From NCBI GenBank assembly GCA_020832285.1, contig JAFIFB010000120.1:62001-126000 (forward strand): a DNA stretch of 64,000 nucleotides, given 5' to 3'. Below are positions 1 to 21,443 of this stretch, one piece after another (within the stretch, counting starts at the first letter, position 1; every line of letters begins with the position of its first letter). The stretch is from Balneolaceae bacterium (GTDB taxonomy: Bacteria > Bacteroidota > Rhodothermia > Balneolales > Balneolaceae). The notes beneath the pieces are model-generated. The model did no database searches, was not told the DNA's origin, and worked only from the letters and a program-made list of their open reading frames with translations. The position numbers and the translations under genes are program-made.

Positions 1-773
1 ATGCTACGCAACCCCGTAGCATAAAGCTTCCCCGTTGGATTTACCTGTTCCGTAATATTTTTACTCTCCTCCTGAACCTGGTTCAGTGAATCGGCATAAA
101 ACTTCCAGACACCGCCATGTTTTTCCAATTGGGGGCAGGGATCCAATCCCGGAGAAGCGGGCAGCCGGTTCGTTTCCTGGCATACATCAGACGGTGCACC
201 GTACGGAATGTACATATAGCCGTTGTTATCGAATGAGATCGGTTTGGCAATATGTTCGTGTGAGCCGTGTTCGTGATCATCAATCACAAGTGTATCAAGC
301 CGGGTAGTGTCTGGCAGGAGTTCTCCCGGAATAAGCGGATAGCGCATTACATGAAGATGCGTGCTGAAGTAGAGATAACCATCACGTATTGCGATACCGG
401 TTTCGTAAGAGCCGCGCGATTCCCTGCCGCCAAACCGTTTGATCAGATCTGCTTTGCCGTCATTATTGGTATCCCTGAGTGCCACAATATTGCCTTCTTC
501 GGTTGCCCTCCGAAGCTTTACATAAATATCACCGTTCTCATTTACAACAATATGACGTGCCGGGCCCACACTGTCGGCAATCATTACGGCAATAAATCCA
601 TCGGGCAGTAACAGCGATTCGTCAGATGGGAGCTGAATGGGCGTGGGTTGACAGCCAGTGAATTGAAGAGTAAAGAAAGCTGTAAGAAGAATTATACATG
701 CTGACCTTATTCGGCTGGCATCAAAATAAGATGAAATGCAGAAATGATTCACCCGGCATAGTTTATATTCCAT
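1..773 (-). CDS. PQQ-type glucose/sorbosone dehydrogenase-like lipoprotein, 3' part off the window
   Basis: Reading the minus strand from the ATG at 773 gives an open frame of 257 codons that runs off the left edge, so the C-terminus is missing. The N-terminus has a hydrophobic stretch ending in FTGC, a lipoprotein-type signal, which places the protein outside the cytoplasm. The mature part has the repeated blade motifs of soluble sugar dehydrogenase propellers: RHIVVNENGDIYV, a DTNNDGKAD loop, GIAIRDGYLYFST and a terminal LYATGLR. That family oxidises sugars or aldoses, usually with PQQ. The catalytic His and the PQQ and calcium ligands are mostly beyond the edge, so activity cannot be judged. 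It is transcribed divergently from the lactonase-like gene at 1045. A non-enzymatic propeller protein is the main alternative. Confidence 0.65.
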   Translation of the reverse strand, partial: MEYKLCRVNHFCISSYFDASRIRSACIILLTAFFTLQFTGCQPTPIQLPSDESLLLPDGFIAVMIADSVGPARHIVVNENGDIYVKLRRATEEGNIVALRDTNNDGKADLIKRFGGRESRGSYETGIAIRDGYLYFSTHLHVMRYPLIPGELLPDTTRLDTLVIDDHEHGSHEHIAKPISFDNNGYMYIPYGAPSDVCQETNRLPASPGLDPCPQLEKHGGVWKFYADSLNQVQEESKNITEQVNPTGKLYATGLRS

Positions 774-1044
774 ACTGGTAAGTAAATTAGACAGGCGATA
801 CCCCGAACCTGCAAGTTTTAATTAAAGAATTGCGTATATGCTGGAAAATATTGATGACCAATTGCAGCAACTACCCATTCAATAAAGTATATTCAAATCA
901 ATACTTCAATTTTATACGGAAAATTTGTGATTATTTTTTTGATCCTCAAGGCTTACATTAAGAGGTGTAATCAGACTGATCATTAATACATTGTTATTTC
1001 CATCTATGATCTGAAAAAAGTCATAAACTCTTACATACAATTCT

Positions 1045-1989
1045 ATGAAAAGGATCGATTTTATAAAAAAGGTGGGAAGTGCCGTGTTTATTTCTGCACC
1101 GTTCCTGACTTTTTTACATGGCCAGAAACATCTCTTCTCTGATAATGACGAACTGTTTCAGGCCCGGCATTTTACTGAGCCGGGCAGTTTTACCGCCGGC
1201 ATTGAAGGCCCCGCAGTGGATATAGAAGGCAATCTCTACGCGGTAAACTTTAACCGGCAGCACACAATCGGGAAAGTTACGCCTGACGGAGATGCCACTG
1301 TTTTTGTTGAACTGTGGAACGGTAGCATTGCCAATGGCATCCGGTTCAGTAGCCGGGGAGATATGCTTCTTGCCGATTATGTGAATAATAATGTGCTTAA
1401 AGTGGACATGGAAACACATGAAATTTCAGTCTATGCACATGAACCGCGTATGAACCAGCCCAATGACCTGGCTATCGGGGCGAACGATATTGTCTATGCC
1501 AGTGATCCAAACTGGGCCGATTCCGATGGACAATTATGGCGGGTTGATCCCGATGGAAGCACTGTACTGCTTGAAGAGAACATGGGTACTACCAACGGAA
1601 TTGAGGTAAGCACGGATGAAACAAAGCTCTATGTGAATGAATCGGTGCAGCGTAATGTCTGGCAATACAATTTATCACCGGACGGAGAAGTGAGTAACAA
1701 AGAACTATTGATTCAATTCCCCGATTACGGAATGGACGGAATGCGGTGCGATGCCGATGGCAATCTTTACATTACCCGGTATGGGAAAGGAACTGTTGCG
1801 GTGGTATCACCTGAAGGAGAAGTGATTCGTGAAATTGAAATGGCCGACGGATCGAATATCAGCAATCTAGCGTTTGGCGGGCCCGACGGGCAAACAGTGT
1901 ACGTGACAGTTGCAGATATCGGTAATATTCAGGTCTTTCGTGCAGACAGACCGGGCAGAAGCTGGCTGCTATATGAGCAGAGGCGGTAA
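1045..1989 (+). CDS. SMP-30/gluconolactonase-like beta-propeller, exported
   Basis: This 314-residue protein belongs to the SMP-30/gluconolactonase family, metal-dependent lactonases that open sugar lactones to sugar acids. Expected metal-site positions are present: Glu54 in the first EGP blade, the MNQPND loop near residue 137, Asn184 in TNGI and Asp231 in GMDGMRCDADGNLY. The leader MKRIDFIKK followed by a hydrophobic stretch resembles a Bacteroidota Tat leader (MKRRDFIKK) with the second Arg replaced by Ile, so export is likely but the route is uncertain. An SDR gene follows after 32 bases, and a sugar dehydrogenase-like gene is divergent upstream. That pairing fits oxidation to a lactone and then hydrolysis. 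The true substrate is not visible. Confidence 0.8.
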   Translation: MKRIDFIKKVGSAVFISAPFLTFLHGQKHLFSDNDELFQARHFTEPGSFTAGIEGPAVDIEGNLYAVNFNRQHTIGKVTPDGDATVFVELWNGSIANGIRFSSRGDMLLADYVNNNVLKVDMETHEISVYAHEPRMNQPNDLAIGANDIVYASDPNWADSDGQLWRVDPDGSTVLLEENMGTTNGIEVSTDETKLYVNESVQRNVWQYNLSPDGEVSNKELLIQFPDYGMDGMRCDADGNLYITRYGKGTVAVVSPEGEVIREIEMADGSNISNLAFGGPDGQTVYVTVADIGNIQVFRADRPGRSWLLYEQRR

Positions 1990-2974: not shown

Positions 2975-4186
2975 ATGTTAAGCCGCAGAAAACTTTTAAG
3001 CCTTCTTGCCGCATTTCCGTTTACCGGCTGGCTGATCGGAAAAGCCGGGAATGAAACTAAAAGTAATGATCGTATGGACATGATTTTGCAAAGGGATTTT
3101 TTCAAAGAGCTCGGGGTCAGGCGGTTTATCAACGGCCAGGGAACCATCACCACGCTTTCCGGTTCACTAATGCCCCCTGAAGTACTCGATGCTATTCAGT
3201 TTGCATCTCGTGATTTTGTAAAGCTGATTGAATTGAATGAAAAAGTTGGTAATCGGATCGCGCAGATGCTCAATTGTGAAGATGCACACGTAACGGCAGG
3301 AGCAGCTTCTGCTATTCAGCTTGCCGTTGCGGCTTCCATAACCGGCAGTGACCGCGAGAAAGTGAGGAAGATCCCAAATATTCCCGGCCCTCAAAAAGAG
3401 GTGGTGATGCCCAAAAACCATCGTATATACGAGCAGCAATTTACAGCGTGCGGTGTGAAAATTGTGGAAGCCGATGGTCCTGAAGAGCTGGAAAAATCGA
3501 TCAATGAAAATACGGTGATTGGATTTTATTTTAATGCATCGCACCACCAAAGCATCTCCAGAGAGGAGTTTGTTGAGATATGCAGAAGTAAAAATATCCC
3601 TTCATTCAACGATGCTGCGGCTGATGTTCCTCCCGTGGAAAATCTTTTCAAATATATTGAAATGGGTTTCGACCTGGTTACATTTTCCGGTGGCAAGGCC
3701 ATTCGCGGACCTCAGAGTGCGGGTTTGCTGTTTGGTAAAAAAGAACTGATCGAAGCAGCCAGGCTGAACCACAGTCCCTACGGTTCTATCGGAAGGGGAA
3801 TGAAGGTAAACAAAGAAGAGGTGATCGCCATGATGGTAGCTCTTGAAAGATATCTCGAAAATGATCATGAAAAGGAGTGGGAAATGTGGGAGCAGTGGGT
3901 AGAAAAAATTGCCGAAAATGTACGAACAATTCCATCGGTTCAAACCGAAATGTTTGTCCCTGAAGTAGCCAATCATGTGCCGCACCTTCGCATCACATGG
4001 GACCCGCAGAAAATTGAGATCACTTCTGCTGAAGTGCAGGAAGCATTAAGCAAAGGAGAGCCGGCTATCGAAATTTTCAGCCGGGAAGAAGCGCTGGAGC
4101 TGAATGTGTTCATGATGAAACCCGGTGAACCCGAAATTGTGGGCAATCAAATCGAAAAAATATTGGAAAAGGCAACCAGGAGTTGA
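2975..4186 (+). CDS. SelA/DgaE-like PLP-dependent enzyme with Tat-type leader (copy 1)
   Basis: This 403-residue fold-type I PLP enzyme is of the SelA-like group that includes D-glucosaminate-6-phosphate ammonia-lyase (DgaE). The Schiff-base lysine is Lys241 in FSGGKAIRGPQSAG, the family signature, and the PLP-binding aspartates are in FNDAAADVPP (Asp213, Asp217). The N-terminus is MLSRRKLLSLLAAFPFTG, with a twin-arginine S-R-R-x-L-L pattern and a hydrophobic stretch, so the folded PLP enzyme is probably exported by Tat. Cytoplasmic DgaE relatives lack such a leader. A close paralogue lies at 13600. Family knowledge suggests amine elimination from a 2-amino acid or amino sugar acid, leaving an enamine for the nearby RidA proteins. 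It is not a selenocysteine synthase by context. Confidence 0.85.
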   Translation: MLSRRKLLSLLAAFPFTGWLIGKAGNETKSNDRMDMILQRDFFKELGVRRFINGQGTITTLSGSLMPPEVLDAIQFASRDFVKLIELNEKVGNRIAQMLNCEDAHVTAGAASAIQLAVAASITGSDREKVRKIPNIPGPQKEVVMPKNHRIYEQQFTACGVKIVEADGPEELEKSINENTVIGFYFNASHHQSISREEFVEICRSKNIPSFNDAAADVPPVENLFKYIEMGFDLVTFSGGKAIRGPQSAGLLFGKKELIEAARLNHSPYGSIGRGMKVNKEEVIAMMVALERYLENDHEKEWEMWEQWVEKIAENVRTIPSVQTEMFVPEVANHVPHLRITWDPQKIEITSAEVQEALSKGEPAIEIFSREEALELNVFMMKPGEPEIVGNQIEKILEKATRS

Positions 4187-4513: not shown

Positions 4514-5794
4514 ATGAATATGTTGGATTCGACTAATTTGTTGTTCAGTCAGGGGTTAATAATTTTTTTCTTTCTTCTCTGTATCCCGCTGCTTGCACAC
4601 GCACAGCAATACGATCTCATCTTAAAGGGAGGGCATTTAATTGACCCTAAAAATGAAATTGACTCCCCTTTTGATATCGCTGTTAAAAATGGGGAAATTG
4701 CCAGGGTAGCCGAGAATATTCCCGCCGAAGATGCTGAAAAAGTTGTGAACATTGAAGGTTACTTCGTCACACCCGGCCTGATTGATATTCACGGACACCA
4801 TTTTTTCGGCACCGAGCCTAATGCTTACCTCAGTAACAGTTTTACAGCCCTGGCCCCGGATGGTTTCACCTTCCGTGCAGGAGTAACCACGGCCGTGGAT
4901 GTGGGCGGCCCGGGCTGGACCGATTTCAGGCTGTTTAAGGAACAGGTAATTGACCGCTCTCAAACCAGGATTCTTGCTTTCATCAATATCGTTGGAGTGG
5001 GAATGAAGGGGGTGGTTCCATACGAACAAAATTTGAACGATATGGATCCCAAAATGACTGCCCTGGTTGCGAATCAGTTTCCTGAGATTGTGGGTGTGAA
5101 AATTGCACATTACAGCGGCCATGAGTGGGAGCCGTACCGTCGCACTATTGAAGCCGCAGAGGCTGCCGGAATTCCAATAATGGTTGATTTTGGCGGGGCC
5201 GATCCGCCGCTGCCGCTTGAAGAGCTTTTCTTCGATATTCTCAGGCCCGGCGACATTTATACACACGCTTATGGCGGTGGGGTTACAGCTCATGGCGGGC
5301 GGCAGTCTGTAACCGATGAAAACGGAATCCTGAGGCCGCGAATGCTGGAAGCACAGGAGCACGGCATAATTTTTGATGTAGGTCATGGCGGCGGAAGCTT
5401 TTTTTATGATGTTGCGGTTCCTGCCACAGAACAGGGTTTGTGGCCCAATACCATCAGTACTGACCTGCATACCGGAAGCATGAATGCGGGGATGAAGGAT
5501 ATGCTCAATGTGGTGTCGAAATTCCTGAATCTGGGTATGTCTTTGCCCGATGTGGTGAAAGCATCTACGTGGAAGCCAGCCCAGGTTATTCAGCGCGAAG
5601 ATCTTGGCCATCTGAGCGAAGGAGCAGTGGCTGATATTGCCGTATTCAGCCTTGAAGAAGGCGATTTTGGATTTGTGGATTCCAGGGGTGTGGTAAAACC
5701 GGGAACTCAAAAACTGTACACAGAACTTACACTTCGGGAAGGAAGGGTTGTCTGGGATTTAAACGGACTGGCAGCGCCCACCTGGGGTGAATAA
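4514..5794 (+). CDS. Exported amidohydrolase/deacetylase-family metallohydrolase (copy 1)
   Basis: This 426-residue amidohydrolase-superfamily enzyme is related to the EF_0837/Atu3266 deacetylase group. Metal-site residues are visible: His93 and His95 (DIHGHH), the probable carboxylated Lys196 (VGVKIAHYSGH) with His199 and His203 nearby, His251 in THAYGGG and Asp317 in STDLHTG. The N-terminal hydrophobic segment ends LLAHAQQ, a Sec signal peptide, so it acts outside the cytoplasm. In other genomes this family often accompanies SelA/DgaE-like PLP enzymes, as it does here, where N-deacylation ahead of amine elimination makes sense. Its closest relative is the paralogue at 7066. The start could also be the Met two codons later. 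Confidence 0.85.
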   Translation: MNMLDSTNLLFSQGLIIFFFLLCIPLLAHAQQYDLILKGGHLIDPKNEIDSPFDIAVKNGEIARVAENIPAEDAEKVVNIEGYFVTPGLIDIHGHHFFGTEPNAYLSNSFTALAPDGFTFRAGVTTAVDVGGPGWTDFRLFKEQVIDRSQTRILAFINIVGVGMKGVVPYEQNLNDMDPKMTALVANQFPEIVGVKIAHYSGHEWEPYRRTIEAAEAAGIPIMVDFGGADPPLPLEELFFDILRPGDIYTHAYGGGVTAHGGRQSVTDENGILRPRMLEAQEHGIIFDVGHGGGSFFYDVAVPATEQGLWPNTISTDLHTGSMNAGMKDMLNVVSKFLNLGMSLPDVVKASTWKPAQVIQREDLGHLSEGAVADIAVFSLEEGDFGFVDSRGVVKPGTQKLYTELTLREGRVVWDLNGLAAPTWGE

Positions 5795-6013: not shown

Positions 6014-6493
6014 ATGAAAACAGTTAAAAATCACTCCTCGCGGCGGGCAGCAATCAGGTCAATGTTTGCAGCGATACTGGGCGGTACTGCAGGAATTTTT
6101 GGTGTGTCGCGGGCAGAATCTTCTCCCGGGAAGAAGGTAAAACTGGCAGAAAGTGAATCATCCGCCCAACCGCTGATTGCCCAGCATGTGGTTCATGGAA
6201 ACCTTGTATTTGTGAAGGGAATGGGTGCGCACGATGAACCCGACATCAAAAAGGCTACCACCATTGCCCTCGATCAGATCGAACGGGAACTGGAAAATGC
6301 CGGGAGTTCAATGAATAATGCGCTTCAGGCAACCGTTTTTCTTGCCAACATCCGCGACTATGATGCCATGAACGAAGCGTACAGGGGACGATTCGGAGAC
6401 AATCCGCCCGTGCGCTCAACGGTGGCCTGTTATAAGGGAATTCCTGGGAATTCACTCGTCGAAATCGACTGTATTGCGGCACTTCAGCGATGA
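6014..6493 (+). CDS. RidA/YjgF-family protein with Tat-type leader (RidA-1)
   Basis: This 159-residue RidA family member has an added N-terminal leader. RidA proteins hydrolyse reactive enamines and imines released by PLP enzymes to keto acids and ammonia. The substrate-binding Arg is present as Arg134 in PVRSTVACY, and the C-terminal VEIDCIAA matches the family's EIExxA segment. The leader holds SSRRAAIRSMFAAILGG, a twin-arginine pattern, so this member is probably periplasmic, unlike the usual cytoplasmic RidA of about 130 residues. It stands 43 bases before a close tandem copy and near Tat-type PLP enzymes, which argues for enamine clearance in the same compartment. Confidence 0.85.
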   Translation: MKTVKNHSSRRAAIRSMFAAILGGTAGIFGVSRAESSPGKKVKLAESESSAQPLIAQHVVHGNLVFVKGMGAHDEPDIKKATTIALDQIERELENAGSSMNNALQATVFLANIRDYDAMNEAYRGRFGDNPPVRSTVACYKGIPGNSLVEIDCIAALQR

Positions 6494-6536
6494 TAAATCA
6501 AATATTATCCATTCATAAACACATAAATTATTCCAC

Positions 6537-7034
6537 ATGAAAGTTACTGAAACCAAAACATCAAGAAAATCAGCCCTGAAATCGATGTTTGCAGCTGTGG
6601 TATCAGCAGGGGCAGGTTTGCTGGGTGTATCAAAAGCCGGTGCTTCCGGTTTGAACAACAAAGATGTATCCATCAAAAAGATTCCGGACCAAAAACAATC
6701 GGAATCCGGCAGGCAGCCGCTTTTTTCGAGTGTGGTTGTTCACGACGGACTGGTGTATGTAGCCGGAAAAGGGGAGCATGGCGAAGGAGATATCACCGTA
6801 CATACAACCTCGGTGCTTGATCAGATTCAAGCTGAACTGGAAGGAGTGGGCTCATCGATGGAAAAAGTGCTGAAAGTAAATGTTTACCTCCACGATATGC
6901 GCGACTATGATGAGATGAATGCAGCTTATCGCGGGCGGTTTGGTGACAGTCCGCCAGTACGTTCTACAGTAGCCTGCTACAACGGCATTCCCGGAAACTC
7001 CCTTGTTGAAATCGACTGCATCGCAGCACTCTGA
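6537..7034 (+). CDS. RidA/YjgF-family protein with Tat-like leader (RidA-2)
   Basis: This tandem paralogue of the preceding RidA protein is 165 residues long. The functional Arg is conserved (Arg142 in PVRSTVACY) and the last 40 residues are almost identical to RidA-1. The leader TSRKSALKSMFAAVVSAGAG has Arg-Lys where a Tat signal has Arg-Arg, so the export route is less sure, but a hydrophobic leader and a following spacer are plain. An amidohydrolase gene starts 31 bases downstream, and the RidA-1, RidA-2, amidohydrolase and RraA genes are likely one operon. Confidence 0.85.
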   Translation: MKVTETKTSRKSALKSMFAAVVSAGAGLLGVSKAGASGLNNKDVSIKKIPDQKQSESGRQPLFSSVVVHDGLVYVAGKGEHGEGDITVHTTSVLDQIQAELEGVGSSMEKVLKVNVYLHDMRDYDEMNAAYRGRFGDSPPVRSTVACYNGIPGNSLVEIDCIAAL

Positions 7035-7065: not shown

Positions 7066-8325
7066 ATGACCCGAAAATATTTCCATCACCGGTATTTGCT
7101 CATTCTCCCGTTGATCCTTCTGATTGTCCTGCCGGTTCAAAGCCTGGCACAAAATTACGATCTGTTACTTAAAGGCGGCCATGTGATCGATCCGAAAAAT
7201 GAGATAGACGCACCCCGCGATGTTGCCATCAAAGACGGAATCATTGCAAGGGTTGCACCGGATATATCTGAAGAAAGTGCAGAACGAGTGGTGGATGCAA
7301 ACGGCCTCTACATCACTCCGGGATTGATTGACATACACAGCCACAATTACCACGGTACCATTCCGAACCGTTCATGGAGTAACAGTTTTGGATCTTTGCC
7401 GCCCGACGGTTTCACGTTTCGCTCTGGTGTAACTACCACGGTTGATGTGGGCGGGGCAGGCTGGAGAAACTTTCAGCATTTTAAAGAGCAGGTGATTGAC
7501 CGTTCCCGGACCCGTGTGCTTGCGTTTATCAACATAGTGGGGGATGGCATGAGCGGCATGCCCGAGCAGAATCTGAACGATATGGATCCGCGGATGACAT
7601 CTATCGCAGCCAACCGTTATTCGGAAGTTGTGGGTGTAAAAATTGCTCATTACAGTGGTCACGACTGGGAGCCTTATCACCGAACCGTAGAAGCCGCTGA
7701 GCGTGCCGGAATCCCGGTGATGGTCGATTTTGGCGGAGCGCAACCACCCCTTCCACTCAATCAGCTGCTGCTTGAAGTTCTTCGTCCCGGTGATATCTAT
7801 ACACACGCTTTTGGCGGGGGTGTGGCGGTTCGTCAGGCTGTAACGGATGATGAAGGCAACCTGAGGGACGGAATGATGGAGGCACAGGAACGCGGAATTA
7901 TTTTTGATATCGGCCATGGAGGAGGTAGTTTCTTTTACGATGTGGCTGTGCCTGCTACGGAACAGGGGCTCTGGCCGAACACTATCAGTACCGACCTGCA
8001 CACCGGCAGTATGAACGACGGTATGAAAGATATGCTCAATGTTGTTTCCAAAATTATGAATCTGGGGATGCCGCTTCAAAAAGCCATTGAGGCGTCTACC
8101 TGGAAACCTGCACAGGTGATCCAGCGTGAAGATCTGGGCCACCTTAGCGAAGGCGCTGAAGCCGATATTGCAGTACTGAGGTTGAAACAGGGGAATTTCG
8201 GTTTTCCGGATGCTCGCGGATATAATATCACCGGAAGCCGTAAACTCGAAGCGGAGTTAACCCTGCGGGAAGGGCGTGTTGTCTGGGACCTGAACGGCAT
8301 CGCTGCCACTCCATTTCAAGAATAA
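7066..8325 (+). CDS. Exported amidohydrolase/deacetylase-family metallohydrolase (copy 2)
   Basis: This 419-residue paralogue of the enzyme at 4514 shares long identical stretches around the active site. It has His91 and His93 (DIHSH), the probable carboxylated Lys192 (VGVKIAHYSGH), a THAFGGG histidine and the Asp of STDLHTG. The Sec signal peptide ends LPVQSLAQ. It is packed between RidA-2 (31 bases upstream) and the RraA-like gene (24 bases downstream), so it is almost certainly cotranscribed. Keeping two copies suggests two related acyl substrates or two regulation states. Deacetylation is inferred from the family, since the superfamily also contains dihydroorotases and other amidases. Confidence 0.85.
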   Translation: MTRKYFHHRYLLILPLILLIVLPVQSLAQNYDLLLKGGHVIDPKNEIDAPRDVAIKDGIIARVAPDISEESAERVVDANGLYITPGLIDIHSHNYHGTIPNRSWSNSFGSLPPDGFTFRSGVTTTVDVGGAGWRNFQHFKEQVIDRSRTRVLAFINIVGDGMSGMPEQNLNDMDPRMTSIAANRYSEVVGVKIAHYSGHDWEPYHRTVEAAERAGIPVMVDFGGAQPPLPLNQLLLEVLRPGDIYTHAFGGGVAVRQAVTDDEGNLRDGMMEAQERGIIFDIGHGGGSFFYDVAVPATEQGLWPNTISTDLHTGSMNDGMKDMLNVVSKIMNLGMPLQKAIEASTWKPAQVIQREDLGHLSEGAEADIAVLRLKQGNFGFPDARGYNITGSRKLEAELTLREGRVVWDLNGIAATPFQE

Positions 8326-8349: not shown

Positions 8350-9300
8350 ATGTACGGAAAATCCATCCTTTTTTTATCTCTGATTATTTTGTTGTCCACA
8401 GCAACACTTTACGCACAATCGATTCCTGATGATCATATTGTAGCATCGGTGGAAGAAGTGCTCTACTACACCTCTGAATGGGACGGTGAGCGCCTGCCGG
8501 ACGGCCGCCCTAAAGTTGATGACGAATGGCTTGAAAGGCTCAAAAATGTAAAAGTGGAGGATGTCTGGCAATATCTGAACGAAATGGGCTACCGAAATCA
8601 GTTTGAAGGTGGCTGGAAAATTCTGCACGAAGATCGCCCGATGGTCGGAAGAGCACTCACCACGCAATACATGCCCAAGCGCCCCGACATCATGGAGAAA
8701 AAAGAGCGGGAGGGCCTGGATGCCGGACATATTGGTGCGATGAATTCCTGGCCTATTGATATGCTGCAAAATGGAGACATCTATCTTGCTGATTCGTTCG
8801 GGAAAATTGCCCAGGGCACACTGATTGGCGACAAGCTCGGAAACTCGATTTTTGCAAATTCAGAAAACGGAGTCATTTTTGACGGGTCACTCAGGGATGC
8901 GGAAACCCTTGCTAATATCGATGGTTTTAACGCCTTTGTGCGCGGCTGGCACCCTTCATTCCTGGAAGAGACTATGCTGATGGGAATTAATGTGCCGATA
9001 CGTATCGGAAAAGTAACGGTGATGCCGGGAGATGTTATTCTTGCAAAAAGCATGGGCGTGGTATTTATTCCGCCGCACCTTGTGGAAGAGATCGTAACCA
9101 CAGCAGAAATCGTAGCACTGCGGGATGAGTTTGTACATCAGAGGGTCCGGGAAGGTGTATACACACCTGGTCAGGTTGATGCACGGTGGACCGATGCGAT
9201 GGAAGAAGATTTCATGGAGTGGGTTCAGGACGGCCGTTTGGATCGCCTGCCGGTAACACTGGAAGAGATGCAGGAATTTCTGCAGCACCGAACGTGGTAA
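8350..9300 (+). CDS. Exported RraA-like class II pyruvate aldolase/decarboxylase
   Basis: This 316-residue protein contains the RraA/HMG-aldolase fold. It has the D-X20-R-D signature of 4-hydroxy-4-methyl-2-oxoglutarate aldolases exactly: Asp161, then twenty residues, then Arg182-Asp183 in DGSLRD. That argues for retro-aldol or oxaloacetate decarboxylase chemistry rather than RNase E inhibition. The N-terminus is a clean Sec signal (SLIILLSTATLYAQS), unusual for this normally cytoplasmic family. It is also longer than the usual 160-240 residues, with extra segments before and after the core. It closes the RidA/amidohydrolase operon. In the proposed pathway it would split a 2-keto acid into pyruvate and an aldehyde. 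Confidence 0.8.
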   Translation: MYGKSILFLSLIILLSTATLYAQSIPDDHIVASVEEVLYYTSEWDGERLPDGRPKVDDEWLERLKNVKVEDVWQYLNEMGYRNQFEGGWKILHEDRPMVGRALTTQYMPKRPDIMEKKEREGLDAGHIGAMNSWPIDMLQNGDIYLADSFGKIAQGTLIGDKLGNSIFANSENGVIFDGSLRDAETLANIDGFNAFVRGWHPSFLEETMLMGINVPIRIGKVTVMPGDVILAKSMGVVFIPPHLVEEIVTTAEIVALRDEFVHQRVREGVYTPGQVDARWTDAMEEDFMEWVQDGRLDRLPVTLEEMQEFLQHRTW

Positions 9301-9853: not shown

Positions 9854-10993
9854 ATGACAGAAAAAATTTACAGAGCTTGTCTTATTCTCGCGGGTCTTTG
9901 CATACCGGTAATCATAGTAATGCTGGCTCTGGGCTATGGGCCGGAAACGGGTGTTTTTGTAATCGGATTTTTTACGCTGGCTGCGATTGGAATCCGCAGT
10001 CTTTCCCATCTGAAAGGTTTTTCATTTACCATTTGGGTTTTCGCGGCTGTTTCCCTTGCTATGTTTTATCCGCAAACGATTACAGATGTGAGAGGTTACA
10101 ATACGGAAGGGTTAATTGTTCCACTTGTTCAATTGATTATGTTCGGGATGGGGACAGCAATGAGTGTTCAGGATTTTGTAGGGGTCATAAAAATGCCAAA
10201 AGGGGTGTTTGTCGGGCTGGTATGTCAGTTCTCCATCATGCCGATTGTGGGCGTTACGCTGGCACTTTCGATGGGTTTCCCGGCAGAAATTGCTGCGGGT
10301 ATTGTACTGATCGGTTCATCGCCAAGCGGTGTGGCCTCAAATGTGATGGCATTCCTGGCCAAAGGAAATCTTGCACTCTCCATCACACTTACGGCTGTTG
10401 CCACTCTTATGGCTCCTATCATGACGCCATTTCTTATGCAAACATTTGCAGGCCAGTTTGTACCCATAGAATTTATGAGCATGATGATGAGTATCATCAA
10501 CATGATTATATTGCCGATTGCGGCCGGCCTTCTGTTTAACCGCATTTTTCGCGGGAGGGCCCAGTGGCTGCACAATGCCATGCCGGCAATCTCAATGGCA
10601 GGTATCGTGATCATTATCGGCGTCATTACCGCAGCAGGCAGGGATAATTTGCTGGTAATCGGTTTTCTGCTGATACTGGCTGCCATCATTCACAATGCAG
10701 CCGGGTATATCCTGGGATATTGGGGATGCCGCCTGTTTGGAATGGACGAAAGAGATTGCCGTACCATCGCTTTAGAAGTGGGAATGCAAAACGGAGGATT
10801 GGCCTCAGGCATTGCAGTGGAAATGGGCAGAGCCGCCACGATGGGACTTGCCCCGGCTATTTTCGGTCCCTGGATGAATATTTCGGGATCATTCCTGGCA
10901 AACTGGTGGCGCGACCGTGCACCACTTGATGAAGAAGAAGTTGGCACTGATGAGGCCGGTCAAACAGATGATTTAAAAAAAAATGAAGATTGA
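9854..10993 (+). CDS. Bile acid:sodium symporter (BASS) family transporter
   Basis: This 379-residue inner-membrane protein has about ten hydrophobic helices and the BASS fold signatures, including a conserved glycine-rich GSSPSGVASNVMAFLA in one discontinuous helix and ALEVGMQNGGLASGIA in the other. Family members move bile acids, pyruvate or other organic anions with sodium. Placed between an exported catabolic operon and a carbohydrate-binding protein, it is a good candidate for importing the keto acid formed outside the cytoplasm. Substrate is inference. It ends in a charged Glu/Asp-rich tail. The upstream 550 bases are filled by repeat families A and B. Confidence 0.85.
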   Translation: MTEKIYRACLILAGLCIPVIIVMLALGYGPETGVFVIGFFTLAAIGIRSLSHLKGFSFTIWVFAAVSLAMFYPQTITDVRGYNTEGLIVPLVQLIMFGMGTAMSVQDFVGVIKMPKGVFVGLVCQFSIMPIVGVTLALSMGFPAEIAAGIVLIGSSPSGVASNVMAFLAKGNLALSITLTAVATLMAPIMTPFLMQTFAGQFVPIEFMSMMMSIINMIILPIAAGLLFNRIFRGRAQWLHNAMPAISMAGIVIIIGVITAAGRDNLLVIGFLLILAAIIHNAAGYILGYWGCRLFGMDERDCRTIALEVGMQNGGLASGIAVEMGRAATMGLAPAIFGPWMNISGSFLANWWRDRAPLDEEEVGTDEAGQTDDLKKNED

Positions 10994-11088: not shown

Positions 11089-12270
11089 ATGAAGTTCAGA
11101 AATCTATTTTTACTATTCACAGTTTGCAGCCTGGCGCTTCTGGTTGCTTTTTCCGTTGCTCCCGAAAATGAAAAAAAGCTTTTGGTTGATGATGAAAAAT
11201 CAGCCGGTATATATCTTGCTAATGATGCGCAAAGGCAGGGTTTTGCCGTTCCGATGATTCCGTTTCAGCCGAAACATTATATCGTTTACCGCACTGATGA
11301 ACCGATTGAGATCGACGGGCGGATCGATGAAGAGGCCTGGGCGAAAGCAGAGTGGACGGATTATTTTGTGGATATTGAAGGCCATCTTAAACCATCGCCA
11401 AGATATCGTACGAGGGCCAAAATGCTTTGGGATGATGACTATTTTTATTTCGCAGCAGAACTGGAAGAGCCCAATGTGTGGGCTACTCTCACTGAGAGAA
11501 ACTCCGTTATTTTCCACGATAATAACTTTGAAATCTTTATTGATCCGAACGGGGATACCCACAACTACTTCGAGTTTGAAATCAATGCCTTCGAAACTAT
11601 CTGGGATCTTTTTCTGACGCGTCCCTATCGCGATGGCGCCCAGGTGATCAACCAGTGGAACCTGCTTGACTATCAGGCAGGTGTTTATATCGACGGGGAA
11701 ATTAACAATCCCGGGGTAGAAGATAACAAGTGGACAGTAGAAGTTGCACTGCCCTGGAGTGCTTTGCAGGAAACAGCTCCCGGCAGAAGGCCTCCCCGGC
11801 ATGGCGAACAGTGGAGGGTAAACTTTTCGAGGGTTGAATGGCTGCTGGATGTTGTTGACAACGAATACCAGAAACGAATCAATCCGGAAACGGGCAATGC
11901 ATATCCCGAGGATAACTGGGTCTGGTCTCCCCAGGGCCTTGTAAATATGCACTATCCCGAAATGTGGGGGTTTGCTCAATTCTCGGAAAATACTGTAGGT
12001 GAAGCTGAAGATGAATTCGAATGGAATCGCGACGAGGAGATTAAATGGGCACTGAGGCAGGTCTACTATGCGCAAAGAAACTACAGAAGCGAACATGGAG
12101 TATTTGCCGATGATTTCCGCAAGCTGAAAATGGCACTGCTTGAAATTGAAGGGTACGATTTTAAACCCACGATTGAGGTCACTAGCAATATGTACGAAGC
12201 CATTGCTGAAAGCATTGACGGCGAACGAACCTGGCATATCCGCCAGGATGGAAGAATCTGGCAACAATAA
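11089..12270 (+). CDS. Exported CBM9-like carbohydrate-binding domain protein
   Basis: This 393-residue protein has an N-terminal hydrophobic leader and a CBM9-like domain (about residues 65-300). Typical features are the opening PIEIDGRIDEEAWAKAEW, the strand DDYFYFAAELEEPNVWA and NNFEIFIDPNGDTHNYFEFEINA. Such domains bind sugars or occur at the end of secreted enzymes; no catalytic domain is visible here. The C-terminal 90 residues (AQRNYRSEHGVFADDFRKL and following) form a small extra domain often seen with this family. It lies 95 bases after the symporter and 27 bases before a RidA gene, so it likely belongs to the same unit and may hold substrate at the cell envelope. Confidence 0.8.
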   Translation: MKFRNLFLLFTVCSLALLVAFSVAPENEKKLLVDDEKSAGIYLANDAQRQGFAVPMIPFQPKHYIVYRTDEPIEIDGRIDEEAWAKAEWTDYFVDIEGHLKPSPRYRTRAKMLWDDDYFYFAAELEEPNVWATLTERNSVIFHDNNFEIFIDPNGDTHNYFEFEINAFETIWDLFLTRPYRDGAQVINQWNLLDYQAGVYIDGEINNPGVEDNKWTVEVALPWSALQETAPGRRPPRHGEQWRVNFSRVEWLLDVVDNEYQKRINPETGNAYPEDNWVWSPQGLVNMHYPEMWGFAQFSENTVGEAEDEFEWNRDEEIKWALRQVYYAQRNYRSEHGVFADDFRKLKMALLEIEGYDFKPTIEVTSNMYEAIAESIDGERTWHIRQDGRIWQQ

Positions 12271-12297: not shown

Positions 12298-12897
12298 ATG
12301 GCCAAAACCCAATCCAGCAAAACTAAAAAAACCGTTACCCTATGGTTTTTGATTCCAACCCTGTTATTAACCGTTGCTTTATTTACCGGAATGGAAAGAA
12401 CTTCAGGTACAGATCAGGACCCGCTTTACGATTATGATGTGGAGGAAAGGATCGCGGAGCTTGGTATTGAACTGCAAACTCCCACCCCGCCAACCGCCAA
12501 TTATGTGCGTGCTATCCGCACCGGAAATCTTGTGTTTCTTGCCGGCCACGGGCCCGACAGGCCGGAGGGCGGCCAGGTAACAGGGACTATGGGAACCGGT
12601 GAACTGACCCTTGAAGAAGGGCAGGAAGCAGCGCGTTTTACCGGAATCTCTCTGTTGACATCACTCAAAACAGAAATCGGTGATTTGAATAAAGTCAGCC
12701 GGATCGTTAAAGTTACAGGAATGGTCAATGCCGATCCGTCGTACACCGAACATTCACAGGTTATTAACGGATTCAGCGATCTGATGGTGGAAATTTTTGA
12801 GGACCGGGGACGTCATGCACGCGCATCCGTCGGTATGAGTTCGCTGCCCGGCAACATTCCTGTGGAGATCGACATGATTGTGGAAGTTGCCGATTAA
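12298..12897 (+). CDS. Membrane-anchored RidA-family protein (RidA-3)
   Basis: This 199-residue protein has a single N-terminal transmembrane segment (WFLIPTLLLTVALFTG) preceded by Lys residues, so the RidA domain faces the periplasm. The domain belongs to a different RidA branch from the pair at 6014/6537, with a longer loop (GPDRPEGGQVTGTMG). The key Arg is Arg175 in HARASVGMSSLPG and the C-terminal VEIDMIVEV is conserved. The next gene is a close paralogue carried as a lipoprotein. Role: probable hydrolysis of enamine or imine products from the neighbouring PLP enzyme. Confidence 0.8.
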   Translation: MAKTQSSKTKKTVTLWFLIPTLLLTVALFTGMERTSGTDQDPLYDYDVEERIAELGIELQTPTPPTANYVRAIRTGNLVFLAGHGPDRPEGGQVTGTMGTGELTLEEGQEAARFTGISLLTSLKTEIGDLNKVSRIVKVTGMVNADPSYTEHSQVINGFSDLMVEIFEDRGRHARASVGMSSLPGNIPVEIDMIVEVAD

Positions 12898-12960
12898 TCC
12901 GCATTTTAAATTCAGCTTATTTCCTTACAAAAAATTCTTTTTAACCTGAAAAATATACTC

Positions 12961-13512
12961 ATGAAATCATTGATCACGATATTACTTGCAGCCGGACTTC
13001 TCATTTCCTGTGCAGATGAACAAGCTCAGCAAACCACGGGAAATGACCATGATGTTGCAGAACGGCTTGCTGAACTTGGAATTGAACTTACAGAACCCGG
13101 TCCGCCGGTTGCCAATTTCGTGTATGCTGTTCAGACTGGAAATCTTGTTTTCTTATCCGGCCATGGTCCGGACAGGCCAGAAGGCGGCCAGGTAACCGGG
13201 AAACTGGGTACAGGTGAACTAACCCTTGAAGAAGGCCAGGAAGCAGCACGACTCACCGGAATAGCCCTGCTTGCATCACTCCAGCAGAAAATTGGTGACC
13301 TGAACCGAGTTGAACGTATTGTGAAGGTGAACGGTATGGTAAACGCCGATCCATCTTTCACCCAGCATTCACAGGTTGTTAACGGATTCAGTGATTTGAT
13401 GGTAGAGATTTTTGGTGATAAAGGCCGCCACGCCCGGGCATCGATCGGGATGAGTTCACTTCCCGGAGATATAGCTGTGGAGATTGATATGGTGGTTGAA
13501 ATCTCGGATTGA
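12961..13512 (+). CDS. RidA-family lipoprotein (RidA-4)
   Basis: This 183-residue protein is nearly the same as RidA-3 through the catalytic domain (Arg159 in HARASIGMSSLPG), but its N-terminus is a lipoprotein signal, LLISC, followed by an acidic spacer. The two paralogues thus use different envelope anchors. A PLP enzyme gene follows by 87 bases, so a PLP-lyase/RidA partnership is visible in gene order. RidA proteins carried as lipoproteins are not something I know from characterised systems. Confidence 0.85.
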   Translation: MKSLITILLAAGLLISCADEQAQQTTGNDHDVAERLAELGIELTEPGPPVANFVYAVQTGNLVFLSGHGPDRPEGGQVTGKLGTGELTLEEGQEAARLTGIALLASLQQKIGDLNRVERIVKVNGMVNADPSFTQHSQVVNGFSDLMVEIFGDKGRHARASIGMSSLPGDIAVEIDMVVEISD

Positions 13513-13599: not shown

Positions 13600-14811
13600 A
13601 TGATCAACCGACGCAAAACCTTAAAAATATTGGCAGGTCTGCCTTTTATTGGCGGAATGGCCGCCTCCGCACTCATTACAAAACCGTCCGGCGCAAAGCT
13701 GGAGAGGCCAAGGTATTCCCGTGATTTTTTTACCGAACTGGGACTGAGGCCTTTCATTAATGCGCGCGGCACTATTACGGCCCTGTCTGGTTCTCTGATG
13801 CTGCCTGAGGTGATGGAAGCTGTTAACTATGCATCGCAGCAGTTTGTGAGCCTGAACGATTTGCAGGACAGGGTGGGTGAGCGAATTGCTGAAATGCTGA
13901 ACTGTGAAGCGGCGATGGTTTCATCGGGTGCTGCAGCGGGTATGACTCTCGGTACAGCAGCCTGCATCACCGGCGATGACCGGGAGAAAATACGCCTGCT
14001 GCCAAATCTGCCCGGACCAGAGCGTGAGGTTATTATCCAGAAAACTCACCGCTTTGCCTATGACCACGCTGTAAGAAATTGCGGTATAAAACTGGTTGAA
14101 GTGGATGGGCCCGAAGAGATGGAGCAGGCCATTAACGAACGAACTGTGATGATGCTCTTTTATAATGCTGCTTCGGAACACAGTGTCAGCAAGGTAGAAT
14201 TTGTAGCTATCGGCAAACGTCACAATGTACCCACCTTTAACGATGCTGCTGCTGATGTGCCCCCAGTCGAAAATCTTTTCAAATATACGGAGATGGGTTT
14301 TGATCTGGTTACATTTTCAGGCGGAAAAGCAATGAAAGGCCCCCAGAGTGCCGGACTTCTATTTGGCCGAAAAGATCTTATTGAAGCAGCTAAAATGAAT
14401 AATAATCCAAATGCCGATTCCATAGGGCGCGGTTTTAAAGTAAATAAAGAGGAGATACTGGCTATGATGGTTGCGCTGGAAAATTACCTCGGTCGCGACC
14501 ACGAAAAAGATTGGCAGGAATGGGAAAACCGGGTTGATCGGATCGCCTCGGCCGTAGAAAATATTCCAACGGTGGAAACCGAACAGTATGTACCGGCAGT
14601 AGCCAACCACGTGCCGCACCTGAGAATCACATGGGATGAAGAAGAACTGAAGGTTACACCTGAAGAAGTGAGAGAAAAGCTGAGGTTCGGACATCCCTCT
14701 ATTGAGGCTGCCGGGGGCGGGAATTCGCTGGATTTGAGTGTTTTTATGATGCAGCCTGAAGAAGTGGGCATTGTGGGACGAAGGATAAGAGAAGAGCTCA
14801 CTTCAAATTAG
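13600..14811 (+). CDS. SelA/DgaE-like PLP-dependent enzyme with Tat leader (copy 2)
   Basis: This 403-residue paralogue, equal in length to the enzyme at 2975, has the Schiff-base lysine Lys243 in FSGGKAMKGPQSAG and PLP aspartates in FNDAAADVPP (Asp215, Asp219). The leader MINRRKTLKILAGLPFIGG fits the Tat consensus (N-R-R-K-T-L-K) well, better than most proteins in the window. It ends the block of CBM9-like protein, RidA-3 and RidA-4. An inverted copy of repeat A follows within 10 bases of the stop. The likely reaction is elimination of ammonia from an amino acid or amino sugar acid outside the cytoplasm. Confidence 0.85.
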   Translation: MINRRKTLKILAGLPFIGGMAASALITKPSGAKLERPRYSRDFFTELGLRPFINARGTITALSGSLMLPEVMEAVNYASQQFVSLNDLQDRVGERIAEMLNCEAAMVSSGAAAGMTLGTAACITGDDREKIRLLPNLPGPEREVIIQKTHRFAYDHAVRNCGIKLVEVDGPEEMEQAINERTVMMLFYNAASEHSVSKVEFVAIGKRHNVPTFNDAAADVPPVENLFKYTEMGFDLVTFSGGKAMKGPQSAGLLFGRKDLIEAAKMNNNPNADSIGRGFKVNKEEILAMMVALENYLGRDHEKDWQEWENRVDRIASAVENIPTVETEQYVPAVANHVPHLRITWDEEELKVTPEEVREKLRFGHPSIEAAGGGNSLDLSVFMMQPEEVGIVGRRIREELTSN

Positions 14812-15777: not shown

Positions 15778-15931
15778 TAAAACTGCCGTGAAGGTTGCCT
15801 ATAGATTAAGGTCAGGAAAATTCAACGATTTAAATCGGGTAGCATTCAAATAAAATACGGTGGTAAATAATCAGCAAGATAAGGTAGGATTTATCTCATT
15901 CTATCAACTTCAACAACATAAAAATAAACCT

Positions 15932-18900
15932 ATGCAACAATACAAATACTTTCGCTTCATTAATTTGTGCGTATTGTTATTGTTTGCAGTCAACTTTACG
16001 TTGCATGCACAAGAACGAACAATAACAGGTACAGTTACCTTTGTCGAGGATGGCTCATCGCTTCCGGGGGTAAACGTAATGGTGGTTGGAACCCAGATTG
16101 GTACAACTACAAATGTTGACGGAGAATACTCTCTCCGGATTCCAGAAGATGCCCAGCAGCTGCGGTTCTCATACATTGGAATGTCTGCACAAACTTTTGC
16201 AGTTCCATCAGATACCGATGTATTAAATGTGGTAATGGAAGCACATGCATCAGCTATGGATGAATTAGTTGTTACTGCTCTTGGTATTACAAGGGAAAAA
16301 AGAACCATTGGATATTCTTCCACTTCACTGACCGGTGAAAATGTTTCTGTTTCATCTCAGGTCAATCCCGTTAATGCTCTTCAGGGAAGAGTGGCCGGGC
16401 TTGATATTCAGCAGACAGATGGCGGAACCTTTGGTGGCAGTCGTATTACCCTGCGCGGTAATTCTGTACTTGGTGGAAATAACCAGCCGATTTTCGTTGT
16501 GGATGGTGTGGTGTATGAAAATCAGACATCCGGTGCTGATCAGTGGGGAGGTAGTGACTGGGGCAACCAGCTCAAGAACCTGAATCCTGATGAATTTGAG
16601 TCGGTTACCGTGTTGAAAGGAGCTGCGGCTACGGCACTCTACGGTTCTCGTGCAATTAACGGTGTAGTTGAGATTACAACCCGCCAGGGTCAGTCTCGGC
16701 CCGGTATTGGTGTTCGTTTCAGCCAAAGAACTCACGTTAAAGATCCTTATGACGGACCTGCTTTTCAAAACGTGTTTGGGCCGGGAACAATTCCTGGTGC
16801 TGCCAGCGGTTTGAGCGACCCGTGGAATGTTCAAAATGAATTTTTTGTCGACTCTGAGGGCAGACCTTTTTACCAGCGAAACCAGCTTTCATTCGGTCCC
16901 CGAATGGACGGGCAGACGATGGTTCTGGATCTTGACGGACAGACGATGATACCGAACAATCCTCAACCAAATAACTTTCTTGATCTCTATGAGAGAGGAT
17001 TTTATAGCAATACAAATCTGCAGATTGATGGCGGCAGTGAATCAACGACATTCTTGATTTCCGGAACGAACACAACCGAAACCGGGACAACACCCAATAA
17101 CGACTTCAATCGTTCGTCGATATTTTCAAGGGTTACTCATCAATTGAATGATTACATTCGGGCAGATGTGGGCTTAAGCTATGCACACAGCACGGCTGAA
17201 AATCCACCCGGTAATAACCTTCAGCACGCCTTTATTACATCTAACTTCTTCAGAAACTACGATACAGCCAAGTGGAGAGATCAGTACAGAGCTTCGCACG
17301 GGGGTGTTCCCTCAACGGCGCATGGAGATCAGCTTGGGTCTGTGCCGAACCTGAACGTATTTTTCGCTCTGAATGAAAACAGGAATCAGAGAGTTGAGGA
17401 GACCTTGCGTCTTACCACGAAAGTTAACTTTAATATTGCCGAGTGGTTTAATATTGATCTGGATGGTTACATCAATAATTACTATATCCGTAATGAAAAC
17501 AGGGTATTAGGACAAGGTTTTGCAAATGCGGGCGGATCCTATATGCTTGGTCACCAAAGAAGAGAAGAGCTCGACGGAAAGATCTTCTTTAACTTCCTTG
17601 GGCAGATCTCTGAGGATCTTTCCGGTTCATTCACAATTGGAGCAGAACACTTCAGCCAGGAGGCATCTTCAACCAGTGCAAACACCAACGGCGGGCTGAC
17701 TGTGCCCGGCCAGTACTTCCTTGCCAACAGTGTAAACACACCTACAGCGAATGCAAGTGTGTTCGGAACCAAGCAGATGAACTCGGTATTCAGTTATGCA
17801 AACGTGGAGTGGAGAAATCAGCTTTTTCTTAATCTTACCGGTCGTCATGACTGGACATCCACACTGACCTATTCCGACGGAACAGGAAACAACAACTATT
17901 TCTATCCTTCGGTAAGTTTGTCATGGCTTGCAACCGAAACCTTTGATCTGCCGGATCTCTTTTCTTATGTGCAGTTCAGGGGATCTTATGCCGAGGTAGG
18001 TAATGACTACAGTATCTACTCTATCAACCCCGGGTTTGCTCACCAGGGCAACCTTCAGGCACTTACCGGACAGAACCTTGTAAGGGTTTCCCATAACAGC
18101 ACTGTGGTACCAAACCTTGATCTGCAGCCAGAGCGTAAAAAAGCCTGGGAGTTTGGTACGGATGTCCGCGTTCTGAATGAAAGAGTAGGACTCGATTTTA
18201 CATGGTATCGTGAGAACACAATTAACCAGATTCTCAATATTCCTGTACCCTCTGAAACCGGAGTAACCGCACAGTTGATCAACGCTGGAGATATTCAAAA
18301 CCAGGGCATTGAGATTGCTCTTAACACGCGAATTATAGAGCGGCCAGATCTGCGATGGGGTATCGACTTTACGTACACCCGCAACAGAAATATGATTAAA
18401 GCTCTGTATCAAGATATCGAACGGTTCAACCTCTATGAGAGTGCCACATTTGGTAACACCCGTGTGGGTACCGTTGCGTTTGTAGGTGAAGAGTGGGGAA
18501 TTCTCTACTCAGATTCTGCCCCCGCAGTAGATCCTGAAACCGGAATGAAACTCCTGAACTGGAACAATTCATTACGAGGTGCAACTCATTTCCGATCAGG
18601 CGAACAGCAGGAAGTGGGTAACATGAATCCCAAATTTCTTGGAAGTGTAAGTACAAACGCATACTACAAAGGATTTAGCCTCAGTGTGTTGTTAGATGCT
18701 AAGATTGGAGGAGATGTTTCCAACTATGCCGGCCGATATGGTCATTCATACGGGAATCTGGAATCATCGCTCAAGTGGCGTGACCTGGAATATGGCGGAA
18801 TGGAGTGGACTTCCCGCCACACCGGAAATACCTATACAGATGGTATGATCCCTGATGGAATATTCCGGGATGGCACCACGATTGATGGTGTGGATGTAAG

Positions 18901-19267
18901 CGGCATGACCTATCAGCAAGCTTTCGATGCAGGCCATGTTGATCCTACACATGCCGGTTTCTGGCACCAGCAAAACAACAACTGGGGAAATGGAGTTATC
19001 AACGAAAATGTAGTTCACGAAAATTCCTATATCGGAATTCGTGAAGTGATGCTTGGTTATGACGTTCCTGTTCGAATTGCCAACAGCTTAAACGTGAATA
19101 GCCTCAGAATAGCCGTATTCGGAAGAGATCTTGGCTTCCTGTACAAAACCATGCCGAATAATATGCATCCGTTCTCTGTGCGAAATACCCATGCAGGATC
19201 TGCACACGTTTGGGGTGTTATTCCCTACATTCGGACCATTGGCGTGAACCTGGATATCCAATTTTAA
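15932..19267 (+). CDS. SusC-like TonB-dependent outer-membrane transporter (pair 1)
   Basis: This 1111-residue protein counts from the Met at 15932, chosen because it aligns with the start of the paralogue at 30223 and gives a proper signal peptide (CVLLLFAVNFTLHAQ); the frame is open from 15860. After the signal come a carboxypeptidase-regulatory-like domain (ITGTVTFVEDGSSLPGVNV), a TonB-box-like DELVVTALG, the plug domain (ALQGRVAGLD, ITLRG, IFVVDG, VLKGAAATALYGSRA) and a long beta-barrel ending in an aromatic residue. It imports oligomers or other large solutes with the SusD lipoprotein encoded 40 bases downstream. No polysaccharide-degrading enzyme is next to it, so the ligand cannot be named. 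Confidence 0.92.
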   Translation: MQQYKYFRFINLCVLLLFAVNFTLHAQERTITGTVTFVEDGSSLPGVNVMVVGTQIGTTTNVDGEYSLRIPEDAQQLRFSYIGMSAQTFAVPSDTDVLNVVMEAHASAMDELVVTALGITREKRTIGYSSTSLTGENVSVSSQVNPVNALQGRVAGLDIQQTDGGTFGGSRITLRGNSVLGGNNQPIFVVDGVVYENQTSGADQWGGSDWGNQLKNLNPDEFESVTVLKGAAATALYGSRAINGVVEITTRQGQSRPGIGVRFSQRTHVKDPYDGPAFQNVFGPGTIPGAASGLSDPWNVQNEFFVDSEGRPFYQRNQLSFGPRMDGQTMVLDLDGQTMIPNNPQPNNFLDLYERGFYSNTNLQIDGGSESTTFLISGTNTTETGTTPNNDFNRSSIFSRVTHQLNDYIRADVGLSYAHSTAENPPGNNLQHAFITSNFFRNYDTAKWRDQYRASHGGVPSTAHGDQLGSVPNLNVFFALNENRNQRVEETLRLTTKVNFNIAEWFNIDLDGYINNYYIRNENRVLGQGFANAGGSYMLGHQRREELDGKIFFNFLGQISEDLSGSFTIGAEHFSQEASSTSANTNGGLTVPGQYFLANSVNTPTANASVFGTKQMNSVFSYANVEWRNQLFLNLTGRHDWTSTLTYSDGTGNNNYFYPSVSLSWLATETFDLPDLFSYVQFRGSYAEVGNDYSIYSINPGFAHQGNLQALTGQNLVRVSHNSTVVPNLDLQPERKKAWEFGTDVRVLNERVGLDFTWYRENTINQILNIPVPSETGVTAQLINAGDIQNQGIEIALNTRIIERPDLRWGIDFTYTRNRNMIKALYQDIERFNLYESATFGNTRVGTVAFVGEEWGILYSDSAPAVDPETGMKLLNWNNSLRGATHFRSGEQQEVGNMNPKFLGSVSTNAYYKGFSLSVLLDAKIGGDVSNYAGRYGHSYGNLESSLKWRDLEYGGMEWTSRHTGNTYTDGMIPDGIFRDGTTIDGVDVSGMTYQQAFDAGHVDPTHAGFWHQQNNNWGNGVINENVVHENSYIGIREVMLGYDVPVRIANSLNVNSLRIAVFGRDLGFLYKTMPNNMHPFSVRNTHAGSAHVWGVIPYIRTIGVNLDIQF

Positions 19268-19307
19268 TCAGCGGATGTTCTCAAAAGCATCTTAAAAAAA
19301 TAAGATT

Positions 19308-21014: not shown

Positions 21015-21050
21015 TAAGTGCCTGGTTTAGTATAATATGTTAAAATTAAA

Positions 21051-21085
21051 AAAGGGTGCCCGTTTATTCGCGGCACCCTTTTTTT
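21051..21085 (+). terminator. Terminator of susCD-1
   Basis: Stem AAAGGGTGCC / GGCACCCTTT with an 11-base loop and a T run. The surrounding 55 bases recur in decayed form at 26970-27024. Confidence 0.85.
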
Positions 21086-21184
21086 GTTTCTATAAGACAA
21101 GAATTGTTGTGGGAAAATTTAAATAGTGGTTGTAAAAAACCAGCCATCCCCGGGAAGGTGTTCCAATTATCTCAATAACTAATG

Positions 21185-21300
21185 TTAAGTCAATTCTGAT
21201 TTGCCGGGTAAAGACCTGGCACCTTTCTACTTGGTATACTAACCATGTATGAGATAACGAACAAAACCTGTCAGGTCTCAAAAATGTTAGTGTCTTGACT
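21185..21300 (-). repeat. Dispersed repeat, family R1 (inverted copy)
   Basis: On the minus strand this reads GAGACCTGACAGGTTTTGT, a divergent middle, CCAGGTCTTTACCCGGCAAA and TTGACTTA, matching the other R1 copies. It is followed (21300-21350) by a partial family C sequence with GTAGTGTCAATTGCAAAAGTGTGAG. Confidence 0.65.
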
Positions 21301-21423: not shown

Positions 21424-21443
21424 AATTGAATATTTTTCACCTA

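Follow-up and report, generated by a model that had tools for sequence, protein, structure and literature searches.

An RraA-like protein with a predicted export signal from a Balneolaceae bacterium: a candidate aldolase among predicted exported sugar-acid enzymes

Findings

The 316-residue RraA-like protein encoded at positions 8350-9300 (+) of the 64,000-nucleotide stretch of Balneolaceae DNA analyzed here (the window) belongs to a recurrent set of predicted exported sugar-acid enzymes. This is a stronger finding than the reading of its activity, which we hold with somewhat more confidence than doubt, namely that it is an aldolase of 2-keto-3-deoxy sugar acids that would end an exported Entner-Doudoroff-like route. 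Family, fold, motif, leaders and gene linkage were computed, and from these we infer catalysis, substrate, order of steps, compartments and transporter cargo.

The RraA-like protein and its predicted N-terminal signal

The open reading frame begins with ATG, 24 nt after the end of an amidohydrolase gene, and its product scores 72.5 bits with the Pfam RraA-like model PF03737 (cut-off 24.5); this family assignment, proposed in an initial annotation, is also borne out by the RraA fold of the structural model. The same annotation had pointed to an exact motif of D161, twenty residues and then R182-D183, which is indeed exact and occurs only once in the protein, and to a Sec signal peptide. The N-terminus, MYGKSILFLSLIILLSTATLYAQ, has a short basic region followed by a hydrophobic core and then ...A|Q, with a predicted signal at residues 1-22. 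Conservation was assessed on 87 different RraA rows of at least 220 residues at an E value of 1e-8, with shorter pieces dropped, two of them from a split gene at locus L034. Q23, the first residue after the predicted signal, is invariant in a 51-row alignment of RraA-like relatives (the window protein with 50 of the 81 listed rows, hand-picked for spread), and a crude hydropathy test finds a signal-like N-terminus in 84 of the 87 rows. The three misses are a row cut by a contig edge, one with a doubtful start and one that is signal-like to the eye yet falls under the threshold. Export was judged by such sequence features and conservation, with crude tests, and on these grounds a Sec-type export signal is supported.

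The only other PF03737 match in the genome is a leaderless protein of 226 residues on contig C70 (1369-2049 (-) of locus L001), whose gene is separated by 3 nt from that of a short-chain dehydrogenase at 562-1365 (-). This dehydrogenase is 65% identical to the one encoded in the window at 2022-2813, and the L001 pair possibly represents an oxidative keto-acid route like that of FlDet, the Flavobacterium enzyme considered below.

Structural model and putative active site

The AlphaFold2 model of the protein has a mean pLDDT of 93.7, and its top structural matches by Foldseek and VIA-align all have the RraA fold: 5X15 (Z 25.2), 3K4I (23.5), 3NOJ (21.8) and yeast YER010C (20.4), with E. coli RraA at Z 17.2. 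Matches under Z 8, such as dihydroxyacid dehydratase and PPDK, were treated as common arrangements. The closest solved fold, 5X15, is Streptomyces coelicolor RraAS2, which shares 26% identity with the window protein but is, by its entry title, a member of the RNase ES inhibitor family. RraAS2 is cytoplasmic. The RraA fold is also that of PDB 5IR2, described as a "cellulase" from a gut-ecosystem study, a name that looks like a misannotation.

The initial annotation took the motif as that of a pyruvate aldolase and made the conservation of its three residues a point to be checked. R182 and D183 are invariant in all 87 rows; D161 falls short of universal, with position 161 being D in 72, S in 8, N in 3, G in 3 and A in 1. 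An acid occupies position 259 in every row (D259, with E in two). The likeness of the protein to the HMG/CHA aldolase 3NOJ (PMC5065237) extends to the RraA fold, the D-X20-R-D motif, a conserved acid near the position of E199 and the probable pyruvate-site arginine. In that enzyme roles have been assigned to R123, D124 and the metal ligand E199, which in sequence alignments falls within one residue of D259; most homologues are described there as carrying one of two metal motifs (PMC5065237).

The 15 rows that lack D161 bear on the latter point. An acid is found at position 186 in 10 of them as against none of the 72 rows with D161 (Fisher p 7.5e-10, uncorrected for kinship), and the remaining five, which lack both, are three N161 rows and two outgroup-like G161 paralogues. 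In a quick tree built without columns 161 and 186 six independent pairs differ at position 161, and the acid at 186 goes along with the change in four of these and the opposite way in none (sign test p 0.125). The second metal motif presumably has the form G-X20-R-D-X2-E/D. These substitution patterns thus suggest that the family has two ways of keeping a metal site; this points to an enzyme but to no reaction in particular. The aldolase interpretation of the motif is favored by the fold and by the retention of metal-site and pyruvate-site residues in several phyla, but the motif on its own is not diagnostic because FlDet, a dehydratase/decarboxylase that is inactive on KDG, is likewise RraA-like.

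Gene neighborhood in the window

The neighbors of the RraA-like gene are predominantly predicted exported enzymes. A divergent gene at 1-773 (-), which runs off the window (C125, 60968-62773), encodes a homologue of GSDH/cytochrome c fusion proteins, of which the window contains the N-terminal part; it is 52% identical to an L053 protein that combines GSDH with cytochrome c domains. The other genes described here up to position 14811 are on the forward strand, beginning with an SMP-30/gluconolactonase-like protein (1045-1989; profile match) that carries an N-terminal signal in its sequence and the leaderless short-chain dehydrogenase (2022-2813). A DgaE-like protein of the PLP ammonia-lyase family with a Tat-type signal (SRRKLL) and an SGGK lysine at K241 is encoded at 2975-4186, and a second one (signal NRRKTL, lysine K243) at 13600-14811. 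Against the DgaE model NF047797 the pair score 170.3 and 156.6 bits, under the cut-off of 600, and against the subfamily model TIGR01437 they score 209.8 and 200.8 bits, under the cut-off of 385.3. Two paralogous predicted exported amidohydrolases (4514-5794 and 7066-8325) exceed the NF006689/PRK09237 cut-off of 371 with 414 and 418 bits respectively, and the second, a putative N-deacetylase, has the DIHSH, GVK, THA and DLHTG motifs. The expected catalytic motifs were found in the DgaE-like proteins and amidohydrolases of the window.

Four RidA-family genes lie in this one cluster (6014-7034 and 12298-13512). Three were recognized by profile matches, at 6014-6493 and 6537-7034 with Tat-like N-terminal extensions (SRRAAI and SRKSAL) and at 12298-12897 with an N-terminal hydrophobic segment; the fourth, at 12961-13512, has a lipoprotein-like N-terminus (LLISCADE) and is similar in sequence to the third. 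Judged by sequence, the arginine with which RidA binds the substrate carboxylate seems to be missing from these proteins, at what we take to be its position. Model matches to the DgaE-like proteins, amidohydrolases and RidA proteins start about 28 to 58 residues late, as added leaders would give, and the genome encodes TatC. Downstream of the RraA-like gene are an SBF/BASS-family transporter (9854-10993), a putative pyruvate/keto-acid importer with a PanS-like score of 241 bits, under the equivalog cut-off of 400, and a predicted exported CBM9-domain protein recognized by profile (11089-12270). Further downstream three SusC/SusD-like pairs stand in a row (15860-35318), two of them closely alike, which suggests a duplication.

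The association of a DgaE-like lyase with a PRK09237/EF_0837-like amidohydrolase recalls the DgaE/DgaF and EF_0837-type clusters (NF047797, TIGR01437, TIGR03583). Those clusters are cytoplasmic and use the DgaF aldolase, whereas the window proteins have Tat or Sec leaders and miss the DgaE cut-offs, and an RraA-like protein occupies the aldolase slot.

Phyletic distribution and gene linkage

A single scan of genome contigs for relatives recovered 67 loci spanning, going by record titles, Balneolota, Bacteroidota, Rhodothermota, Acidobacteriota, Verrucomicrobiota, Calditrichota, Planctomycetota and Chloroflexota; this subfamily of predicted exported proteins is widespread, and the window protein is no singleton. 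Nearby genes were taken as non-overlapping open reading frames of at least 100 residues rather than curated gene calls, and the labels ENO (enolase superfamily), UxuA-like and the others denote the best BLAST match to chosen reference proteins. Within 8 kb of the RraA gene ENO is found at 27 loci, a UxuA-like gene at 9 and a DgaE-like gene at 6, with at least one of the three at 37; SBF is found at 27, and a dehydratase/lyase or SBF at 44. No listed partner lies within that distance at the other 23 loci, several of which are on short contigs and many others in Acidobacteriota. Where at least 5 kb is available on both sides (34 loci), a dehydratase/lyase is present in 20 and a dehydratase/lyase or SBF in 22. 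ENO representatives carry MR_MLE domains when whole proteins are scanned with Pfam (a 70-residue fragment gave no match). The models for galactonate, gluconate, mannonate and rhamnonate dehydratases all match below their cut-offs, and we assign ENO to none of these sugars.

Most of the dehydratases and lyases at these loci bear putative Tat-type leaders. Counted over the first 60 residues, 39 of 42 ENO, 18 of 20 DgaE and 11 of 12 UxuA-like proteins have an RR motif, as against 116 of 713 other open reading frames. The hydropathy part of the Tat/Sec test is crude (it passes 10 of 42 ENO proteins and also 239 of the 713 others), and because it fails on most Tat signals the motif count was used for Tat-type proteins.

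Individual loci illustrate two versions of the linkage. At L110 (genome G011) genes for SusC, SusD, RidA, GSDH/cytochrome c, DgaE (leader ISRKKML), SGL, RidA, amidohydrolase, RraA (of the S161/D186 type) and SBF follow on one strand, and at L124 (G065) SusC, SusD, two UxuA-like proteins, RraA, ENO, SBF, ENO, a PQQ dehydrogenase with a cytochrome domain and SGL do likewise. PQQ or GSDH/cytochrome genes also stand beside DgaE and RidA at L064 and L053, and a deacetylase-type amidohydrolase, a PLP lyase and RidA, identified by family, are linked in the window, L110, L053 and L074. Genomes G067 and G068 have a DgaE cluster without RraA, which is encoded elsewhere with ENO and SBF; RraA is hence not bound to the DgaE cluster, and we read this as one shared downstream RraA serving two front ends. 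At six Bacteroidota loci (L038, L042, L046, L048, L086 and L087) genes belonging to one cluster, c13, stand beside ENO and RraA; the one scanned, from L042, encodes an alpha-L-rhamnosidase and hints at L-rhamnose as a possible feed of this form of the route. The split RraA copy at L034 (4924-5541 and 5489-5803, in two overlapping frames) lies beside an intact copy and ENO and represents a frameshift or an assembly error.

Co-occurrence was further assessed in 92 genomes of the family to which the window belongs; these are related and not independent, and p-values computed on them should not be taken at face value. Exported RraA was counted in the 17 genomes with a best E value of 1.2e-91 or better, leaving out two weak cases among 19 (G054 and G055). 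ENO or DgaE is present in 16 of these 17 genomes as against one of the 75 others. DgaE occurs in 8 of the 92 genomes, every time with RraA, ENO in 14, of which 13 have RraA, and SBF in 24, that is, 16 of the 17 with RraA and 8 of the 75 without. G073 is the sole RraA genome with neither ENO nor DgaE; matching coordinates suggest that its locus L009 and L029 are the same contig, in which case this genome has a UxuA-like gene.

Proposed pathway and alternative explanations

We propose that the RraA-like protein would be exported by Sec and then act, either in the periplasm or at the cell surface, as a class II lyase of the pyruvate type that uses a divalent metal. In this enzyme R182 would hold the pyruvate or enolate, and D183, together with D161 and D259 of a neighboring subunit, the metal. 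In the route that the gene linkages suggest, a PQQ/GSDH-type quinoprotein dehydrogenase would oxidize an aldose or an N-acetyl amino sugar to the lactone, which the SMP-30 lactonase would open to the acid. Neutral sugar acids might then be converted to 2-keto-3-deoxy acids by an exported dehydratase of the enolase superfamily or UxuA-like type, and amino-sugar acids by deacetylation through the amidohydrolase followed by the Tat-exported DgaE-like ammonia lyase with RidA. As the last enzyme of this non-phosphorylating route RraA would split the 2-keto-3-deoxy sugar acid into pyruvate and an aldehyde, and the SBF transporter of the BASS type may import the pyruvate. The idea of its cargo comes from plant BASS2, which carries pyruvate, BASS5, which carries 2-keto acids, and PanS, which has been implicated in ketopantoate and pantoate transport (PMC10645422). 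A sensible last pathway step had been foreseen in the initial annotation, and the release of pyruvate at this point does fit the gene context.

By analogy with the ong pathway for oxidized chitin, the version of the route in the window probably serves amino-sugar acids; the ong pathway, which is predicted to be cytoplasmic, also combines a deacetylase, a deaminating lyase and a RidA-family protein to convert GlcNAc1A to KDG (PMC9537276). As described there, OngB and OngC turn GlcNAc1A via GlcN1A into KDG and ammonia, the RidA-family protein OngD is essential and KdgK phosphorylates KDG (PMC9537276). The family names differ from those in the window: OngB resembles D-aminoacylases and OngC is a putative deaminase of D-amino acids, whereas their possible counterparts here are PRK09237 and DgaE-like proteins. 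Unlike the window set, the ong proteins are predicted to be cytoplasmic, and no RraA is named among the ong genes in that account (PMC9537276). The likely substrate of the window protein is a 2-keto-3-deoxy sugar acid rather than the HMG, CHA or oxaloacetate of its characterized relatives.

Two other accounts of the protein are unlikely, to about the same degree. It might be an exported counterpart of FlDet from Flavobacterium UMI-01, with a 2-keto-3-deoxy aldarate, or a keto acid akin to it, as the substrate from which it would remove water and CO2. FlDet is RraA-like and acts on a 2-keto-3-deoxy sugar acid, being described as a dehydratase/decarboxylase that is specific for 2-keto-3-deoxy-glucarate (KDGR) and did not turn over KDG (PMC8563752), and a context of sugar-acid dehydratases would suit any enzyme of keto-deoxy sugar acids. 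It differs from the window protein in its length of 237 residues and in not being an aldolase, and it has no cleaved signal, since its native N-terminal sequence begins at Met (PMC8563752). FlDet was also reported to be unaffected by EDTA (PMC8563752), whereas the exported RraA family keeps a metal-type site, and no gene that makes a dicarboxylic sugar acid was recognized at L110 or L124, where some genes are unassigned.

Similarly doubtful is an arrangement in which SBF imports the 2-keto-3-deoxy acid itself, for cytoplasmic cleavage after phosphorylation, while the exported RraA trims another keto acid or decarboxylates oxaloacetate. The genome has a KDPG-aldolase family gene, which makes uptake and phosphorylation of KDG possible and gives room for cytoplasmic cleavage; the link of PanS to ketopantoate and pantoate (PMC10645422) would fit the import of a keto acid, and the name of 3NOJ, an aldolase/oxaloacetate decarboxylase, would fit the side activity on oxaloacetate. 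The KDPG-aldolase gene is, however, on another contig (C70), away from the RraA cluster, and no KDG kinase was seen by eye in the clusters, some of whose genes are unassigned.

It is improbable that the protein belongs to an aromatic pathway, as an HMG/CHA aldolase or an oxaloacetate decarboxylase exported by chance: 3NOJ shares the fold and motif, but at 20% identity, and comes from an aromatic pathway, whereas the window protein is predicted to be exported and lies among sugar-acid enzymes; the equivalog models are far from being reached (NF006731, 53.1 against 179 bits; TIGR02798, 52.3 against 304.5 bits), and no ring-cleavage genes were recognized in the RraA neighborhoods. The HMG/CHA aldolase is cytoplasmic, as is RNase E. 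The least credible reading is that of an RraA-type regulator of RNase E, or of a binding protein without catalysis: the fold is shared with E. coli RraA, but the score with the RraA equivalog NF006875 is 35.8 bits (cut-off 136), and the predicted signal peptide and the conserved metal-type site also count against it. Curated cut-offs and gene context led us to reject both the RNase regulator and the HMG/CHA aldolase.

Implications

The reading of the window protein as an exported aldolase of 2-keto-3-deoxy sugar acids is plausible. The wider proposal, of which we are somewhat less than evenly persuaded, is that Balneolota, Bacteroidota, Acidobacteriota and others carry out a complete extracytoplasmic, ATP-independent catabolism of sugars to pyruvate, in which the front ends for neutral sugars and for amino sugars are interchangeable and BASS transporters mediate Na+-coupled uptake of the pyruvate. 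To our knowledge the RraA-type family is known only inside cells. In the open-licence PMC literature we found no exported RraA aldolase or extracytoplasmic Entner-Doudoroff route, nor an account of an extracytoplasmic role for the Tat-exported dehydratases and PLP enzymes.

Periplasmic oxidation of sugars to acids is well known. The predicted exported set suggests that these bacteria may go on, still outside the cytoplasm, to degrade sugars as far as pyruvate, and such splitting of the carbon chain would, if true, mean that central carbon metabolism is laid out differently. The respiratory chain would receive electrons ahead of uptake, phosphorylation would consume no ATP and a single keto-acid importer would serve many sugars. 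It would also provide a function for a large group of exported proteins that are now named after an RNase regulator, and for the Tat-exported dehydratases and PLP enzymes.
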